A stretch of DNA of 64,000 nt from Rossellomorea marisflavi (lineage in GTDB: Bacteria > Bacillota > Bacilli > Bacillales > Bacillaceae_B), in the NCBI GenBank assembly GCA_003667865.1, contig CP033051.1, positions 259,501 through 323,500 of the forward strand. Reading direction: 5' to 3'. Position numbers and translations under genes: made by a program. Below the pieces are notes generated by a model. The model did no database searches. It saw only the letters and a program-made list of their open reading frames with translations, and was not told where the DNA came from. Positions 9,747 to 15,701 of this stretch are shown piece by piece. How positions within the stretch are numbered: the first letter of the stretch is position 1; the number at the start of each line of letters is the position of its first letter.

Positions 9747-9775
9747 TTGACTCACAAAAAACTTCATGTTACGTT
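9747..9775 (+). promoter_or_regulatory. Candidate promoter of the tetR-smr operon
   Basis: -35 TTGACT (9747-9752), 17-nt spacer, weak -10 TACGTT (9770-9775). The rest of the 409-bp gap after yutI holds only the terminator and AT-rich DNA with no recognisable gene. Confidence 0.35.
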
Positions 9776-9782
9776 TAACTGA

Positions 9783-9792
9783 CGAACGTTCG
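9783..9792. promoter_or_regulatory. Candidate TetR-type operator
   Basis: The palindrome CGAACGTTCG lies just downstream of the candidate promoter and overlaps the ribosome binding site of the regulator gene, a common place for autoregulation by this family. Confidence 0.5.
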
Positions 9793-9804
9793 GAAGGGAT
9801 TGAT

Positions 9805-10389
9805 ATGATGACATCAAATGAAATTAAAGAAGTTTCTTTAAAGCATTTTGCACAGAATGGTTACGAAGGGACTTCAATGGGGCAAATAGCTGATGATGTG
9901 GGAATAAAAAAGCAATCCATTTATACTCATTTCAAAGGCAAGGATGAGCTTTTCCTTCAACTGATTACAGAGGCCAATGAAAAGGAATCAGAGTTCGTCT
10001 GTAATTTCATTATGGATAACAAAACAAGACCTATCCAGGATTTCTTATATGAATTTTTATTACAATGTAAAACTCGCTATGAAATTGAAAGCTCTACAAA
10101 GTTTTGGATACGCACCGCCTTCTTCCCGCCAAATCATCTCAATGACAAGATTATGAAGGATGTATATGGCTACTTGGATCAGGTTGAAGAATCGCTCCTA
10201 CCTATTTTCGAAAAAGCAAAAATAGATGGGAGTATTAGCTCTAACGTAAGAGTACACCAAGCAACCGCTGCATTTATGGGAGTATTGGATGGAATATATG
10301 TTGAAATGTTATATGGCGGTCCAGATCGAACGCAGAAAAGACTAGAGGCATCTTGGTATATGTATTGGCGTGGTCTAGGAACGAATTAA
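9805..10389 (+). CDS. TetR/AcrR family transcriptional regulator
   Basis: A 194-aa protein with an N-terminal helix-turn-helix (about residues 20-40, including YEGTSMGQIADDVGIKK and SIYTHFKGKDELF) and a helical ligand-binding C-terminal domain. It heads an operon with two SMR genes 16 nt downstream and so is likely their repressor, released by a toxic cation or drug; the ligand is unknown. The first good start is ATG at 9805 (or 9808) after GGAAGGGA. The arrangement resembles B. subtilis yvdTSR. Confidence 0.9.
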   Translation: MMTSNEIKEVSLKHFAQNGYEGTSMGQIADDVGIKKQSIYTHFKGKDELFLQLITEANEKESEFVCNFIMDNKTRPIQDFLYEFLLQCKTRYEIESSTKFWIRTAFFPPNHLNDKIMKDVYGYLDQVEESLLPIFEKAKIDGSISSNVRVHQATAAFMGVLDGIYVEMLYGGPDRTQKRLEASWYMYWRGLGTN

Positions 10390-10405
10390 GTTAGGTGGGA
10401 TCGCA

Positions 10406-10747
10406 ATGAATCGAAATTGGATATTTATCATTTTAGCTGGTTTTATTGAAGTGTTATGGGTCTTGGGGCTGAAACATTCATCAAGTATTTTTTCTTGGGC
10501 CGCAACCTTTTTTCTTATCTATTTATCCTTTGTAATGGTCATCAAGGCTACAAAAGTGATACCTGTTGCAACTGCCTATGCAGTCTTTACGGGCATGGGC
10601 ACAGCTGGCACAGTACTAGTTGATATGCTTGTTTTTGGAGAGCCTTTTAGTTATATAAAATTAGCATTCATTCTTTTACTCTTAATGGGTGTTCTAGGGT
10701 TAAAGTTAGTATCTAGTGAATCAAACAAGGAAGAAGGTGTGCGATAA
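10406..10747 (+). CDS. Small multidrug resistance (SMR) transporter subunit
   Basis: A 113-aa four-helix membrane protein. The essential glutamate of TM1 is present (AGFIEVLWVLGLK, about residue 15) and the TAYAVFTGMGTAGT motif marks TM3. A charged tail (SNKEEG) follows TM4. It probably pairs with the next gene product as a heterodimeric proton-coupled exporter of cationic compounds, as in YvdSR and YkkCD; the pairing is inferred from gene order. Confidence 0.9.
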   Translation: MNRNWIFIILAGFIEVLWVLGLKHSSSIFSWAATFFLIYLSFVMVIKATKVIPVATAYAVFTGMGTAGTVLVDMLVFGEPFSYIKLAFILLLLMGVLGLKLVSSESNKEEGVR

Positions 10748-11062
10748 TTGGGGTGGATTTTTCTTATATTGGCTGGGTTATTAGAAGTAGCTGGCGTAAT
10801 TGGAATGAACCTCGTAAATAAATACGGTAATTTTCAATCATATGCCTTTTTAATAATTGGGTTCCTTTTAAGCTTTGGTTTTTTGAGTTTAGCTATGCAA
10901 AGCCTCCCTATGGGAATGTCTTATGCAATTTGGACCGGAATCGGTACGGTAGGTGGAACCATTGTTGGAATGTTGTTTTACAATGAGCCGAAAGAGTGGA
11001 AGCGAATTACATTTATCAGCATGATTTTGGTAGCAGTAGTCGGATTAAAATTAACAACATAA
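10748..11062 (+). CDS. Small multidrug resistance (SMR) transporter subunit, partner
   Basis: A 104-aa four-helix SMR protein with the TM1 glutamate (AGLLEVAGVIG) and SYAIWTGIGTVGGT in TM3. The start is TTG at 10748, immediately after the stop of the first subunit, with AAGGTG 8 nt upstream, so the pair is probably translationally coupled. Its natural terminator appears to have been split by the 11148-13605 insertion. Confidence 0.9.
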   Translation: MGWIFLILAGLLEVAGVIGMNLVNKYGNFQSYAFLIIGFLLSFGFLSLAMQSLPMGMSYAIWTGIGTVGGTIVGMLFYNEPKEWKRITFISMILVAVVGLKLTT

Positions 11063-11123
11063 CGTCAAAATAATGCTTTCCTTATCTAGTTTCATGCAAT
11101 TATTGAACATTAAACATCACGAG

Positions 11124-11137
11124 AAAAAACTAGTCTA
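11124..11137. terminator. Left arm of an interrupted bidirectional terminator
   Basis: AAAAAACTAGTCTA is perfectly complementary to 13616-13629 (TAGACTAGTTTTTT). Without the intervening segment, the two arms plus one copy of the 10-nt CTCAAAGGRA would form a terminator between the convergent SMR and dehydrogenase genes. Confidence 0.75.
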
Positions 11138-11147
11138 CTCAAAGGGA
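11138..11147. repeat. Target-site duplication, left copy
   Basis: CTCAAAGGGA matches CTCAAAGGAA at 13606-13615 in direct orientation (9 of 10). It lies exactly between the terminator arm and the terminal inverted repeat. Confidence 0.75.
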
Positions 11148-11179
11148 TAACCCGTTCGGTTGAGAGGAAGAAAATACAA

Positions 11180-11224
11180 AAAAGGAGGTCAAATTAGCAT
11201 GCTAATTTAGACCTCCTTTTTTTT
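11180..11224. terminator. Long bidirectional hairpin inside the left end of the element
   Basis: AAAAAGGAGGTC and GACCTCCTTTTT flank a second dyad AAATTAGCATGCTAATTT. It would stop read-through from the SMR operon into the element. Confidence 0.85.
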
Positions 11225-11283
11225 CTTGTTATAACAGATTTGAGACTCCGTAATTCTTGTTTTAGTGTGCATATTAGCATAGC

Positions 11284-11359
11284 TTTTAACACCTACTTTA
11301 ACAGCCATGAATAAACTTATTCATGGCTGTTAAAACAGTTGCTAATCGGGGTGTTAAAA
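11284..11359. repeat. Nested inverted repeats upstream of the 58-aa ORF
   Basis: Inner arms TTTAACAGCCATGAATAA (11297-11314) and its exact complement (11317-11334) are separated by 2 nt. Outer arms TTTTAACACC (11284-11293) and GGTGTTAAAA (11350-11359) are also exact. The outer right arm overlaps the GGGGTG ribosome binding site of the ORF starting at 11363. Confidence 0.85.
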
Positions 11360-11362
11360 TTT

Positions 11363-11539
11363 ATGATTACTGTTTATACTGGTTCACAACAAGGATACAA
11401 AGAAGCATATATATTAATGAAATTTATTAAACCTAGAAATATCAATGCTGAAAATGTTGATTGGCTCATTTCAGAACGGGCAAGAGCCGTAGTCTCTTAT
11501 TATGCTGAATACTCTTTATGTACATGTAGTCATAGATAA
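11363..11539 (+). CDS. Hypothetical 58-aa protein inside the mobile element
   Basis: I do not recognise it. It starts at ATG 11363, 9 nt after GGGGTG, and ends just before the structured RNA candidate. The sequence ENVDWLISERARAVVSYY looks helical; there is no membrane segment. It may be a genuine small protein, a leader or a gene remnant. The ribosome binding site is buried in the nested dyad, which would make translation conditional. Confidence 0.4.
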   Translation: MITVYTGSQQGYKEAYILMKFIKPRNINAENVDWLISERARAVVSYYAEYSLCTCSHR

Positions 11540-11546
11540 GTGGTTA

Positions 11547-11653
11547 AGGACTTGACTTGGAGCCTCTGTGGGAATGATTAGTCTTGAAAGGCTGAAGCCG
11601 TTGTTTCATCAGGCATACGAGCCTAGCATACCCACCCCTCCAAGTAAAGTCCT
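11547..11653 (+). ncRNA. Candidate structured RNA with a 20-bp closing helix
   Basis: AGGACTT pairs with AAGTCCT (11547-11553/11647-11653), ACTTGGAG with CTCCAAGT (11555-11562/11638-11645) and GTGGG with CCCAC (11568-11572/11631-11635). Inside are two small hairpins, AGTCT-TGAA-AGGCT (11579-11592) and GCC...GGC (11597-11614). A multibranched fold of this size resembles a riboswitch or a transposon-associated guide RNA. There is no T-run, so it is not a terminator. The class is not recognised and orientation is undetermined; plus is assumed from the adjacent ORF. Confidence 0.5.
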
Positions 11654-11684
11654 ATCGTTGCATACGTTGAGAACTATAAATACT

Positions 11685-11839
11685 TACTGTAGATAATGCT
11701 TCCACAAAGATAGAAAACTGGCATTTTTACTATCTTTACTTACGTTGAATACGGTGGATTTCCATACTGTAGATAAGCACTCCGTTACTTTAAAAAAAGG
11801 TGCTACAGATCGACGCCTCATTAATGGTACTGTAGATAA
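11685..11839. repeat. Three copies of TACTGTAGATAA
   Basis: Identical 12-mers lie at 11685, 11765 and 11828, all in the same orientation, between the structured RNA and the terminator at 11873. A short plus-strand frame reads TVDK around the last two, so this may be a decayed coding fragment with repeats, but no start or family is recognisable. Confidence 0.6.
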
Positions 11840-11872
11840 GGTTGCATTAGTTAAACAAGACAATATAAAAAA

Positions 11873-11906
11873 CAAACGCTTGGACAGTAAAAAGTCCAAG
11901 CGTTTT
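11873..11906. terminator. Terminator downstream of the anti-sigma gene (CGCTTGG family)
   Basis: AACGCTTGGAC, loop, GTCCAAGCGTTTTT with A/T runs on both sides, so it works in both directions. The stem core is shared with terminators at 5299 and 61011. Confidence 0.88.
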
Positions 11907-12035
11907 TGGTAGCTATTTATACTGTTATTTTTAGGGTTAATTATAGTCATTTTTAGTGTGATATTTACACTGTTTTTTCTGATTTTCTCCACAGTATCGG
12001 AACTACTTACTTGTAGAGGGGACTCTTTTTAATAA

Positions 12036-12791
12036 TCATTCAATCATTTGATTAGCAAGGTCAATTAATATTTTACGCGTAATATATCTATTTTCAGCAT
12101 CATGAAAGTAGATATTAATATAAACCTCTTCATTATTTTCAAAACGAATTTCCCCTCCATCTTCGACCATTTCCAATTTTCCTGTTAAGTCCTTTTTTAA
12201 TTCTACTTCTTCCTGATTATTATCTCCAAAAAACTCTTGTTCAAAGTCAACAGCTTGAATAAGGATGAATGAGCCACTATTGTCAATTGCTCTAAAATCC
12301 ACTGAGATATCCTTTCCATCCGTATTTGATTCAAAATGCCAATCATTGATTCCCTCCACAGTAAATTTCGCCTCAAAAGGAATAGTTTCAGGTAATGTCA
12401 ACTTAAAGGGTAAAGATTTAAGAGCATCTTCTACCGTATCTGCATGATAAGTTTTCGGTTGTATACTTTCAAACTTTTCTCTTTGCTCTTCAGACATATC
12501 TTCTAGCCCGTGGCTTTTATCTTCTTCTAAAAGTGAAATATCTAATTTGTCAGGCTGCCTATCTCCCGAAAATGAAAGTAATCCAGTTTGGCTTCCTACA
12601 ATACCAAACATCAGAAGAAACGCTGCACCTCCGAGGCTCCAACCTAAAACTTCAGGTAACCATTTTTTCTTGGTTCTAACACTTTGATTGTTCTCTAACT
12701 TAGTGATTAATTCTCTTTCCTCTTCTTTAGAAAACACTCGTTCTTCTCCAATATGGTTATGAATAGCTTTATGAATTTGATTATTCTTCAT
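12036..12791 (-). CDS. Anti-sigma factor, single-pass membrane protein
   Basis: A 251-aa protein with a cytoplasmic N-terminal helix-rich region (residues 1-45), one membrane segment (about 50-72) and a large extracytoplasmic acidic domain. This is the layout of ECF anti-sigma factors that hold their sigma at the membrane until an envelope signal is sensed. The start is ATG at 12791 after GGAGGCG inside the 3' end of the sigma gene (11-nt overlap), giving translational coupling. I see no recognisable zinc HxxxCxxC motif. The signal is unknown. Confidence 0.75.
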   Translation of the reverse strand: MKNNQIHKAIHNHIGEERVFSKEEERELITKLENNQSVRTKKKWLPEVLGWSLGGAAFLLMFGIVGSQTGLLSFSGDRQPDKLDISLLEEDKSHGLEDMSEEQREKFESIQPKTYHADTVEDALKSLPFKLTLPETIPFEAKFTVEGINDWHFESNTDGKDISVDFRAIDNSGSFILIQAVDFEQEFFGDNNQEEVELKKDLTGKLEMVEDGGEIRFENNEEVYINIYFHDAENRYITRKILIDLANQMIE

Positions 12792-13314
12792 TAAATTCGC
12801 CTCCAAGCTTTTGGTTCAAAAGTTCACGGGCTCTGGATAATCTGGTTCTAATCGTAGAAGAATTAATTCCAAGGACTTCTGAAATTTCTTCAGTTTTTAA
12901 TTCTTGATAGTAAAAGAGAATGATAACTTCTCTATATTTTATAGGTAGGGAAAAAACTGCTTCGCTCAGTACCGTTTTCTGCTGTTGTTTTAGCAGATGG
13001 TGTTCGGGACTTTCAGAATTGACTTTTGTTGAAATTGAATTAGTGAATAATATTTTTTTATAGTGCCAGCTTCGCAAGTAATCCTTCGCTTTATTAGAGG
13101 CAATGGAAAGAATCCAAGCTTTTACGGATGCTTCCTTTTGTAATGTGTCTATTTTTTGGAAGACAATGATGAATACCTCCTGTACCAAATCCTCAGCGGC
13201 ACTCCAGTTTTTTACGTATGCATAAATGAGCCTCTTAACATCTTCTCCATATCGGGTGACCAAGTATCTGATTGAATGCCCTCCTTGAATACCCTGTTCG
13301 TCACTGTTTGTCAT
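12781..13314 (-). CDS. ECF-type RNA polymerase sigma factor
   Basis: A 177-aa sigma-70 family protein with only regions 2 and 4. Region 2 spans about residues 20-88 (AAEDLVQEVFIIVFQKID, then KAWILSIASNKAKDYLR). Region 4 spans about 115-168 (LPIKYREVIILFYYQELKTEEISEVLGIN then RARELL). The start is ATG at 13314, just inside the right end of the element and transcribed towards its left end. It overlaps its anti-sigma gene. It probably activates its own promoter and an unknown regulon. It is similar in style to SigV/SigX/SigW, but I cannot assign an orthologue. Confidence 0.9.
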   Translation of the reverse strand: MTNSDEQGIQGGHSIRYLVTRYGEDVKRLIYAYVKNWSAAEDLVQEVFIIVFQKIDTLQKEASVKAWILSIASNKAKDYLRSWHYKKILFTNSISTKVNSESPEHHLLKQQQKTVLSEAVFSLPIKYREVIILFYYQELKTEEISEVLGINSSTIRTRLSRARELLNQKLGGEFNEE

Positions 13315-13346
13315 AACACACCACCATGAATTTATTCTTTACTTAA

Positions 13347-13375
13347 CAGACGTTTGACGTTCGTGAAAAGTCCCA
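13347..13375 (-). promoter_or_regulatory. Candidate ECF-type autoregulated promoter
   Basis: On the minus strand TGGGAC (13375-13370), 17 nt, then CGTCTG (13352-13347). This resembles the AAC / CGTC motifs of Bacillus ECF promoters but has GAC instead of AAC, so it is tentative. It is about 32 nt upstream of the sigma start. Confidence 0.3.
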
Positions 13376-13488
13376 ATAATCTATTAAATATTTTGTTGAA
13401 TTCTTTAAACGATACTATCACAAGATATTTCTTCCGGACGAATCCTGGTGAACATATCAGATTTGATGATTTGAGATTACAATAAAAA

Positions 13489-13532
13489 ATAGCTGACCCA
13501 ATATTTCACTTATGGGTCAGCTGTTTTTCCTG
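13489..13532. terminator. Terminator inside the right end of the element (GCTGACC family)
   Basis: AGCTGACCCA ... TGGGTCAGCT with A-run and T-run on either side. It insulates the sigma gene region from outside transcription. Confidence 0.85.
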
Positions 13533-13605
13533 TTATTTAATTTGTTAAAAAGGGTGTGTTTTTATTTGCTAATTATATTTTTCTCCCTCTAAACCGAACG
13601 GGTTA

Positions 13606-13615
13606 CTCAAAGGAA
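13606..13615. repeat. Target-site duplication, right copy
   Basis: CTCAAAGGAA, the direct repeat of 11138-11147; in the uninterrupted site it would be the loop of the terminator hairpin. Confidence 0.75.
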
Positions 13616-13629
13616 TAGACTAGTTTTTT
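13616..13629. terminator. Right arm of the interrupted bidirectional terminator
   Basis: TAGACTAGTTTTTT, the exact reverse complement of 11124-11137, placed directly after the stop of the convergent dehydrogenase gene. Confidence 0.75.
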
Positions 13630-13635
13630 GTTATT

Positions 13636-14619
13636 CTATATATTTTGGAAGGCATCCTTATTCACTAACGTCTTAGGAGCTTTTCCTTCTAACACTGCTT
13701 TTATATTGTCGATACAAAGCTTCATCATAATCTTTCTTGTTTCAACAGATGAGCTACCAATGTGAGGTAGTGCCACTACGTTCGATAATGATAGTAATGG
13801 ATGCGTTTCATCTATCGGTTCTTTTTCGAAAACGTCAAGTCCTGCAGCTGCAATATCTCCTGAAACTAACGCTTCGTATAGAGCTTGTTCATTTACAATT
13901 GGTCCTCTACCTACATTAATGAAGATCGCACTGTTTTTCATTTTTTCGAATTGCTCTTTTTGAAACATTCCCTTTGTCTCAGGAGTTAGTGGTGCTAAAC
14001 AAACGATAAAATCAGATTGAGCAATCAGATCATCAAAGGATTTATAGGTTGCTCCTAACTCTTTTTCAACCTCAGGCTTTCTAGAACGGTTATGATAAAG
14101 AATATCCATATTAAAGCCTTTTGCTCTTCTCGCTACTGCACTACCGATGCTACCCATCCCGACAATTCCAATGGTCTTATGATGAATATCTGCACCTGCT
14201 AGTAGCAATGGTGACCAGCTTTTCCATTTCCCTTCTCGCACATATTGATCCGCTTCTACGATTCTTCTCGCAGTGGCCAGCATGAGTGAAAAGGTTAAAT
14301 CAGCAGTTGTTTCGGTTAAGACATCTGGCGTATTACATACAGCGATTCCTCTATTTGTTGCTTCTTTTATATCAATATTATCGAATCCAACGGCTAGATT
14401 TGCAACAACCTTTAATGAGTCTGCGCTTTCCATTAGCTCTTCATTAATTGGATCTGAAAGCATTGATAGTAGTGCGGAAGCTGTACGTGCTTTTTCTTTC
14501 AGTACCTCACTTGATACAGGAATGTCTTCATGCTCCCACATGTCAACATCATACTTTTCTCTTAATGCAACAAGTACATCCTCTGGAAGTTTTCTTGTGA
14601 TATATACTGATGGTTTCAT
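13636..14619 (-). CDS. yvcT: D-2-hydroxyacid dehydrogenase (glyoxylate/hydroxypyruvate or 2-ketogluconate reductase type)
   Basis: A 327-aa NAD(P)-dependent D-isomer-specific dehydrogenase. The Rossmann motif is GIVGMGSIGSAVARR (about residues 150-164). Catalytic residues are the Arg of NVGRGPIVNE, the Glu of DVFEKEP and the His of LPHIGSS. The closest named relative I recognise is B. subtilis YvcT (gluconate 2-dehydrogenase/glyoxylate reductase), but substrate preference cannot be read reliably. It is a single gene whose terminator is split by the adjacent element. Confidence 0.82.
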   Translation of the reverse strand: MKPSVYITRKLPEDVLVALREKYDVDMWEHEDIPVSSEVLKEKARTASALLSMLSDPINEELMESADSLKVVANLAVGFDNIDIKEATNRGIAVCNTPDVLTETTADLTFSLMLATARRIVEADQYVREGKWKSWSPLLLAGADIHHKTIGIVGMGSIGSAVARRAKGFNMDILYHNRSRKPEVEKELGATYKSFDDLIAQSDFIVCLAPLTPETKGMFQKEQFEKMKNSAIFINVGRGPIVNEQALYEALVSGDIAAAGLDVFEKEPIDETHPLLSLSNVVALPHIGSSSVETRKIMMKLCIDNIKAVLEGKAPKTLVNKDAFQNI

Positions 14620-14699
14620 GTTTATCCCGCCTTAGAAATTTGATCCTACATATTTTACCATAGTCGGGATGAAAGTATCATGAAGCAAGCTTACCTTAG

Positions 14700-15701
14700 T
14701 TAGGATAGCCAATTAATTTTCGGAATGGACAATCGATTGATCGGAACCTCACATAGTTGATAAAAGTCCGTTAGGAAACGCTCATGATAATGGGTCGTTT
14801 GAAGGATCCTTTGTAGCTTTTCTGACAGGACATGTTTTTGCTGTTCTGATGTTGTTATATAGTAATCCTCGATACATTGAAAATAATGCAATGGAAATAC
14901 TAGTCTAGAGTACAGTAACCGCCAAGAAAATGAGGATAAGGGAGTAACACTCTGATATTCTCTAACAAACTGCTTTAAATCATGATGAAAGGTTTGTGTT
15001 CGTTTATCGTATAAGTCACGAACCCACTCCGCCACGTCTCTACTACCGTGGTCAAAGACCCATTGAAACGGGTTATGCATCCATACATTCTTTCCCCACG
15101 TATTAGAATGAAAGCGTTCATGACACACCGTTCCTGCATCATGTTCCCGTGGCTCATCATCAAGCTCCGTATCCACTAGATATTGAATGGCATTCTCTGA
15201 AAGTCCCATGTAATAGGGAAAGCTTTCTACAAACAGCCGTTCAAACTCGTCAGAGGGATGTTGTGTGACAACATTTCGATAAACACTCTCTAATTGATTC
15301 ACACGTTGTTCCCATAACTGTTTCCATTGTCCAATACGGTTAATTTTCTCGATACGCTGTTGAACGGTTCTACCTGATACATGAAACCTTGCTAGTTTCC
15401 TTCCAAGCTTTTGTGGAGATACTTTAAGCATTTGATTGTGAAGAACCACATAATCCTGTTCTTCCTCCGTAACAAGATATTTTCCGTCCTCTGTTGGCAC
15501 AAAAGAAGACACATACCGATCCCCTGATGTGCGCAGATGCTCTGAAAGCATATATAGTTCTTGTAATATCTGTTCTTCCATATTCGTAACCTTATGAATG
15601 GTATAAATTGAGTTCCCTGCAACAAAACTATTTAATGAGCCCTCATTATGTGCTCGTTCTACTTGAATTCCATAATACTTTGAAAGGATTTCTTGTGACA
15701 T
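14700..15701 (-). CDS. yutH: Spore coat-associated protein YutH (CotS/kinase-fold family)
   Basis: A 333-aa protein matching B. subtilis YutH. The fold is that of aminoglycoside-phosphotransferase-like kinases, as in CotS. The usual kinase catalytic HGDxxxxN is replaced by CHERFHSNTW near residue 193, so enzyme activity is doubtful. Expected to be made in the mother cell and localised to the spore coat. It is divergent from yutG. Confidence 0.82.
   Translation of the reverse strand: MSQEILSKYYGIQVERAHNEGSLNSFVAGNSIYTIHKVTNMEEQILQELYMLSEHLRTSGDRYVSSFVPTEDGKYLVTEEEQDYVVLHNQMLKVSPQKLGRKLARFHVSGRTVQQRIEKINRIGQWKQLWEQRVNQLESVYRNVVTQHPSDEFERLFVESFPYYMGLSENAIQYLVDTELDDEPREHDAGTVCHERFHSNTWGKNVWMHNPFQWVFDHGSRDVAEWVRDLYDKRTQTFHHDLKQFVREYQSVTPLSSFSWRLLYSRLVFPLHYFQCIEDYYITTSEQQKHVLSEKLQRILQTTHYHERFLTDFYQLCEVPINRLSIPKINWLS

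Follow-up and report, generated by a model that had tools for sequence, protein, structure and literature searches.

A transposase-less element with a sigma factor cargo in Rossellomorea marisflavi is very probably derived from a Tn7491-related transposon family that seems to insert in terminator loops

The window analysed here, a stretch of 64,000 nucleotides from the genome of Rossellomorea marisflavi (assembly GCA_003667865.1, contig CP033051.1, positions 259,501 to 323,500), contains an interval that an earlier sequence-only reading had described as an element without a transposase, carrying a sigma/anti-sigma pair and inserted in the loop of a terminator. Direct reading and a repeat search place the interior of this element at window positions 11148-13605, and the length of 2,458 bp given before was recovered exactly. 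The two arms of the target terminator, 11124-11137 on the left and 13616-13629 on the right (both on the plus strand), are host DNA lying outside the element and, as had been claimed, are exact complements of each other. Between the arms and the element, the presumed terminator loop is indeed present twice in direct orientation, as CTCAAAGGGA at 11138-11147 and as CTCAAAGGAA at 13606-13615 (plus strand), with the two 10-bp copies differing at one position. The terminal inverted repeats, starting with TAACCCGTTCGGTT at 11148-11174 (plus strand) and mirrored at 13579-13605 (minus strand), are identical at 25 of 27 positions, again in agreement with the earlier count. They conform to the pattern TAA(C/G)nnGTTCnGTT of the roughly 27-bp ends of elements like the dfrG transposon Tn7491, and the duplication likewise has a length (9-10 bp) characteristic of such elements. 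Terminators belonging to the element itself had also been proposed for both ends. By eye, terminator-like hairpins do occur there, at 11176-11225 (inverted repeats I4 and I7, with A and T tracts) and at 13485-13528 (inverted repeat I9), although a simple terminator scan of the window flagged neither of them and only picked 11874-11905. A further hairpin at 11286-11347, within inverted repeat I2, includes several TTARCA-type subterminal motifs of the sort enriched in the ends of the family described below. An Rfam search of positions 10000-15000 yielded only matches below the gathering score, including microRNA matches at this hairpin that we take as chance.

The cargo consists of two overlapping genes on the minus strand. 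One (12781-13314) encodes an extracytoplasmic function (ECF) sigma factor of 177 amino acids, recognised by Pfam as containing Sigma70_r2 (2e-17) and Sigma70_r4_2 (1e-15). The product of the other (12036-12806; 256 amino acids) has no Pfam match above the cut-off and is a putative anti-sigma factor, so that the proposed pair is confirmed for the first partner and conjectural for the second. Homologues of the sigma factor (73-78% identical) and of its partner (56-62%) adjoin each other in four relatives (loci L115, L116, L117 and L118), in four unrelated places where no transposon ends were detected and where open reading frames of at least 90 amino acids within about 5 kb gave no common neighbour except one distant 36% match. 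A putative autoregulatory ECF promoter, GGGACTT-N15-CGTCTGT (13346-13374, minus strand), is conserved, as judged by eye, upstream of the sigma gene in the window and in the four relatives. Nowhere else in the host genome is this motif matched exactly, and a search for other ECF promoter sites stayed at chance level (18 matches versus 19 in the control). A catalytic transposase gene is lacking, as had been noted, but the element does keep a truncated remnant of the small gene that comes first in the transposon (11339-11539, plus strand; A3 profile E-value 5.8e-14), and its leftmost DNA (11148-11515) shares 77.5% identity with the left end of a relative, L183, in which the transposase gene is itself broken. 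Since this remnant is all that is left of the genes of an autonomous Tn7491-like transposon, we term the window element a non-autonomous derivative rather than a full member.

Other copies of the ends, which the sequence-only reading had suggested looking for, are widespread. With up to two mismatches, the end motif occurs in 25 of the 36 genomes of the genus (a reversed control gave 5 matches in total). Within the order, 187 of the 397 genomes have it, against 36 for the reversed control by a count made by eye, and many of the matches are arranged as convergent pairs. The interiors of 20 fetched stretches and of the window element mostly hold varied cargo without a transposase, while some contain a two-gene module made up of a small gene and a gene for a protein of about 650 amino acids. 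Three of these large proteins, used as queries against public genomes, returned 37 loci, among others in Bacillaceae, Brevibacillus, Alicyclobacillus, Paenibacillus, Clostridium and Desulfosporosinus. At 24 of the 37, unsupervised detection of inverted ends and duplications recovered the family ends and, with them, an exact duplication of 8-10 bp (L231 being one base off register and L240 the same place as L196). The predicted autonomous relatives, in which ends of this kind enclose a transposase, do exist. In these 24 loci the left end lies 436-665 nt before the transposase gene, mostly about 500, and the cargo is on the opposite side. We assembled 63 distinct elements, including the one in the window, from loci L085 upward and chosen by ends and duplication alone; the transposase search contributed 23, and searches with end patterns and with DNA most of the others. 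They are 0.3 to 5.6 kb in size, and the transposase gene is complete in 22, partial or broken in 6 and absent from 35. A cargo scan of 30 proteins, a selection, found regulators in other elements (a sigma factor in L277, DUF4179 in L275, PadR in L183 and TetR in L231) as well as GNAT, NUDIX, VanZ, SUKH, MFS and ABC genes. A sigma cargo is thus not unique to the window, L277 being an autonomous element with an ECF sigma gene; this family transposon (L277, 1181-6818) combines a full transposase gene with a cargo of the sigma gene and a VanZ gene.

The protein of about 650 amino acids, the presumed transposase, has no match above the cut-off in Pfam, NCBIfam, PHROGs or PDB-sequence searches. The three transposases scanned gave a weak IS1-like zinc-ribbon/helix-turn-helix signal, at best 2.2e-5 and 24.5 bits against an IS1 family cut-off of 100. 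Members of the IS1 and IS1595 families make target duplications of 8-11 bp, comparable to those seen here, and one depositor annotates the protein as 'transpos_IS1 superfamily'; however, the family protein is much longer, and the helper gene, the ends and the cargo differ as well. A structure model of the transposase (pLDDT 84) has DDE transposases, namely Mos1, ISCth4, Tn5, Mu and TnsB, as its best Foldseek matches in the PDB, and residues D277, D424 and E578 are invariant in 25 transposase sequences, consistent with a predicted DDE-transposase fold of the RNase H-like type. The model of the small protein has weak matches, the best mostly to ribbon-helix-helix proteins such as CopG, and the protein is possibly of this type.

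The window element may by now be a dead relic and its sigma pair an ordinary host locus, a view compatible with the origin proposed below and, in our estimate, only slightly less probable than its opposite. A profile search found no transposase match in the host genome, so the element may not be mobile at present, and the truncated helper gene, the mismatch in the duplication and a nested remnant (see below) point in the same direction. On the other side, the ends still match at 25 of 27 positions, and the genus does possess near full-length transposase genes (genomes G006, G033 and G043; a partial one in G047). With the same profile, 10 of the 36 genus genomes have any match at an E-value of 0.001, several of these being short fragments, and 52 of the 397 genomes of the order have one at 1e-20.

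When the flanks of the 63 elements are joined, a stem of at least 10 pairs is centred on the duplication at 41 of the 63 sites, compared with 37 of 2,140 positions in the same flanks (Fisher p 4e-49, a value that serves only as a guide because the copies are related). Such stems are found at 16 of the 22 sites of elements with a full transposase gene, at five of the six with a partial or broken one and at 20 of the 35 with none. A tracts to the left and T tracts to the right of the duplication peak 9-10 nt outside it: 81% of the 63 sites have A at -9/-10, and 81-83% have T at +9/+10. These tracts, together with the fact that all 63 sites come from living genomes, could mean that insertion is not aimed at terminators, the transposase either recognising A/T tracts or inserting anywhere between genes with only harmless sites surviving. 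We consider this unlikely. Stems of at least 10 pairs occur in only 8 of 224 control positions that have both tracts, as opposed to 30 of the 38 sites that have them, and they also occur at 11 of the 25 sites lacking one or both (173 of 11,474 such controls). The tracts therefore do not explain the stems, and selective survival between genes, taken alone, would not account for a duplication centred on a loop. Insertion into the terminator loop with duplication of the loop, as first proposed for the window, is backed by the window itself, by the 63 elements and by the uninterrupted sites of other copies.

Terminators built into the elements appear to be a family trait, too. Inward-pointing ones lie within 250 nt of the left end in 36, of the right end in 39 and of both in 24 of the 63 elements (1-3 and 1-6 in five shuffles), counts that are not independent because the ends have a common ancestry; among the 22 complete copies the corresponding figures are 17, 18 and 14. 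In 88 ends of 44 elements, the motif [AT]TT[AC][AG]CA is present near the ends at 1.73 per 170 nt (0.64 in the other orientation) versus 0.14 inside, and these motifs are perhaps candidate binding sites.

Of six joined sites searched in the 36 genomes of the genus, those of L183, L191, L196, L197 and L147 have junction-spanning matches, and that of L193 has no clear one. Four sites were compared with relatives at the level of single bases, and none of the four is interrupted there; the L196 site, for example, is identical to genome G041 at 134 of 138 positions. At the L183 site, where the hairpin is weak in both the filled and the uninterrupted state, the single copy of the loop is identical to the duplication.

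One member of the family is already known: Tn7491, the transposon that carries dfrG and with it resistance to trimethoprim. It was first found in Tn6198, and passages of PMC10763498 give it a length of 3.3 kb, ends TAAGTAGTTCAGTTTTGGAGTACAAAA and a 9-bp duplication, report evidence for its intragenomic movement and place one copy between convergent genes (the name is written there both as Tn7491 and as Tn4791). The word 'terminator' occurs 0 times in the main text of that paper, and loop targeting does not appear in those passages. More generally, a literature search with limited coverage of subscription journals, which included passages of PMC5678879, PMC10763498, PMC12540322 and PMC8407400, found no description of terminator-loop targeting by this family; the loop targeting, the breadth of the family and the cassette-like cargo look new. 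The family transposase is encoded in 114 plasmid records, 90 of them from Enterococcus; three phage records match as well, two of them over the full length. Three of the four plasmid or phage regions viewed carry dfrG, with the family transposase beside it (L361, L362 and L364: an Enterococcus plasmid, a Staphylococcus phage and a Listeria plasmid), and a Pontibacillus region is without dfrG. The dfrG element measures 3,276 bp and its 24 end bases all match in the two plasmids; the phage has the same ends at the same spacing, the best duplication there being 8 bp long and one base off the ends. This element fits Tn7491 as presented in the passages of PMC10763498. In the dfrG records viewed, the protein labelled 'insertion element protein' (or hypothetical protein) shares 55.8% identity with the family transposase, and a small open reading frame lies upstream of it. 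Tn7491 differs from the window element in having dfrG and its own transposase, the latter element having CCC-type ends, a sigma cargo and no transposase. Pairing of the target arms is strong in the Listeria and Pontibacillus copies.

Mobile insertion cassettes of the MIC231 kind, known from bacilli, follow the same logic, being transposase-less, carrying passenger genes and thought to move in trans by means of IS231/IS4 ends and an IS4-family transposase. It is nevertheless very improbable that the window element is one of them, as the transposase of its autonomous relatives has no IS4-family match and the ends are different. More improbable still is an insertion in the manner of IS1272 (IS1182 family), which replaces a stem-loop. 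IS1272 also targets inverted repeats able to form stem-loops but, according to passages of PMC5678879, removes the stem-loop and leaves no duplication, a course contradicted here by the intact arms and the 8-10 bp duplications, and the relatives' transposase has no IS1182-type match in Pfam or NCBIfam.

We regard it as very probable that the window interval is a non-autonomous derivative of a family of cargo-bearing DDE transposons, kin of Tn7491, and that it was inserted in a terminator loop. The account of insertion holds for the family, and the element in the window is real; at the level of sequence, this reading draws on the ends, the duplications, the hairpin sites, the uninterrupted sites of other copies and the autonomous kin. 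An autonomous copy would supply the transposase, i.e. the small helper gene and the DDE-fold protein of about 650 amino acids, which would join ends starting with TAAC or TAAG to a cut that spans the loop of a Rho-independent terminator with a stagger of about 9-10 bp. This would duplicate the loop and leave the arms of the stem outside the element, whose own end terminators may keep neighbouring genes insulated. Cargo, in the window the sigma/anti-sigma pair with its promoter motif, would sit between the ends. In the window copy the transposase would have disappeared, probably through a deletion, and another member of the family would have been inserted after the anti-sigma gene; the copy may also have moved in trans.

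A further step, which we judge evenly balanced, is that the transposase picks its target by the shape of the hairpin, be it a cruciform or a terminator caught while terminating, with the loop being duplicated and the element's built-in terminators taking over from the broken one of the host, which would make up a cassette system of Gram-positive bacteria. To our knowledge, target choice by structure rather than by sequence is uncommon among transposons. If this is true, terminators would receive accessory genes, sigma switches and dfrG among them, and the adjoining operons would suffer little. Terminators are a safe harbour between operons, one that the family seems to use in bacilli and some clostridia, and how a transposase finds a hairpin becomes a testable question. 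The family also links the clinically important vehicle of dfrG in Enterococcus, Listeria and a Staphylococcus phage to a large environmental reservoir of cassettes with unrelated cargo.

Several observations, besides the lack of a transposase match in the host genome, weigh against the interpretation as a whole. The stem is shorter than 10 pairs at 22 of the 63 sites, and shorter than 7 at 14 of these, although by eye many of the 22 resemble decayed terminators. The 63 elements include related copies that are not independent, and decayed copies were left out of the sample because paired ends and a duplication were required. Terminators that face outward are frequent as well, at 22 of the 63 left ends and 27 of the right ones, so the built-in hairpins are not purely inward-facing. 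Arm pairing is weak (5-7 pairs) in two of the four plasmid and phage copies examined, those of Enterococcus and the phage, both of them dfrG elements. At three of the four base-checked sites the loop in the relative has diverged from the duplication by at least one base, and at the L147 site the relative carries additional bases at the junction. As to the proteins, only two Foldseek matches of the transposase have an E-value below 0.001, the top template modelling scores are low (0.08-0.24 by query), the assignment of the D, D and E residues derives from conservation and the model, and the ribbon-helix-helix reading of the small protein is weak, with no match below an E-value of 0.7. Finally, the uninterrupted window site foreseen by the sequence-only reading was not found: the joined site has no spanning match in the 36 genomes of the genus, and the arm pattern, with one mismatch allowed, occurs in 0 of the 397 genomes of the order.

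The joined flanks of the window element match as two separate halves in the host genome and weakly, on one side only, in two relatives. In 14 of the 15 relatives displayed, out of 29 relative loci, the end of a nifU-like gene (its tail recognised by eye) directly adjoins the dehydrogenase gene, so that the smr operon and the target terminator are absent there, and the terminator appears to be specific to the lineage of the window. Sigma genes at this place without the inverted repeats, which had been named beforehand as evidence against insertion, have no room in those 14 relatives; elsewhere, the pair does occur without detected ends in the four relatives mentioned above. In the window, a tetR-smr-smr operon (9766-11062) lies between nifU and the dehydrogenase gene, an arrangement not shared by 14 of the 15 relatives.

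Two further features occupy the left part of the element. The segment 11844-12009 (minus strand) is the right end of a second, nested element of the TAAGTAG type, aligning to the right ends of L226, L227, L229 and L230 at their tips or within 3 nt of them, and also to L221. It abuts a T-rich half hairpin that follows the anti-sigma gene (12010-12035, plus strand), which is perhaps the terminator struck by the nested element; the arrangement over 11844-12035 suggests a second terminator insertion, and we infer, besides this insertion, a deletion that took the transposase gene out of the window copy. The structured RNA earlier counted as part of the element proved to be something else, a separate, structured and dispersed repeat of about 265 nt (11513-11777; fold z -2.4), similar copies of which (78-93% over most of the length) occur in other genera of the order without the rest of the region. 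Some part of 11500-12010 is matched in 84 of 249 genomes. The repeat has no Rfam family at threshold, and its region contains several TACTGTAGATAA repeats.

A scan of viral contigs with a 14-nt pattern matched 84 stretches; a pattern so short is often expected by chance. A second end resembling those of the family, TAACCCATTCGGTTGAGCG, stands alone next to an A-rich stretch of the host genome (L110, position 5629; C1:1548628, minus strand), and no convincing partner end was found for it there. One family element (L191, 3410-4645) contains a gene that by eye encodes an IS110-like recombinase.

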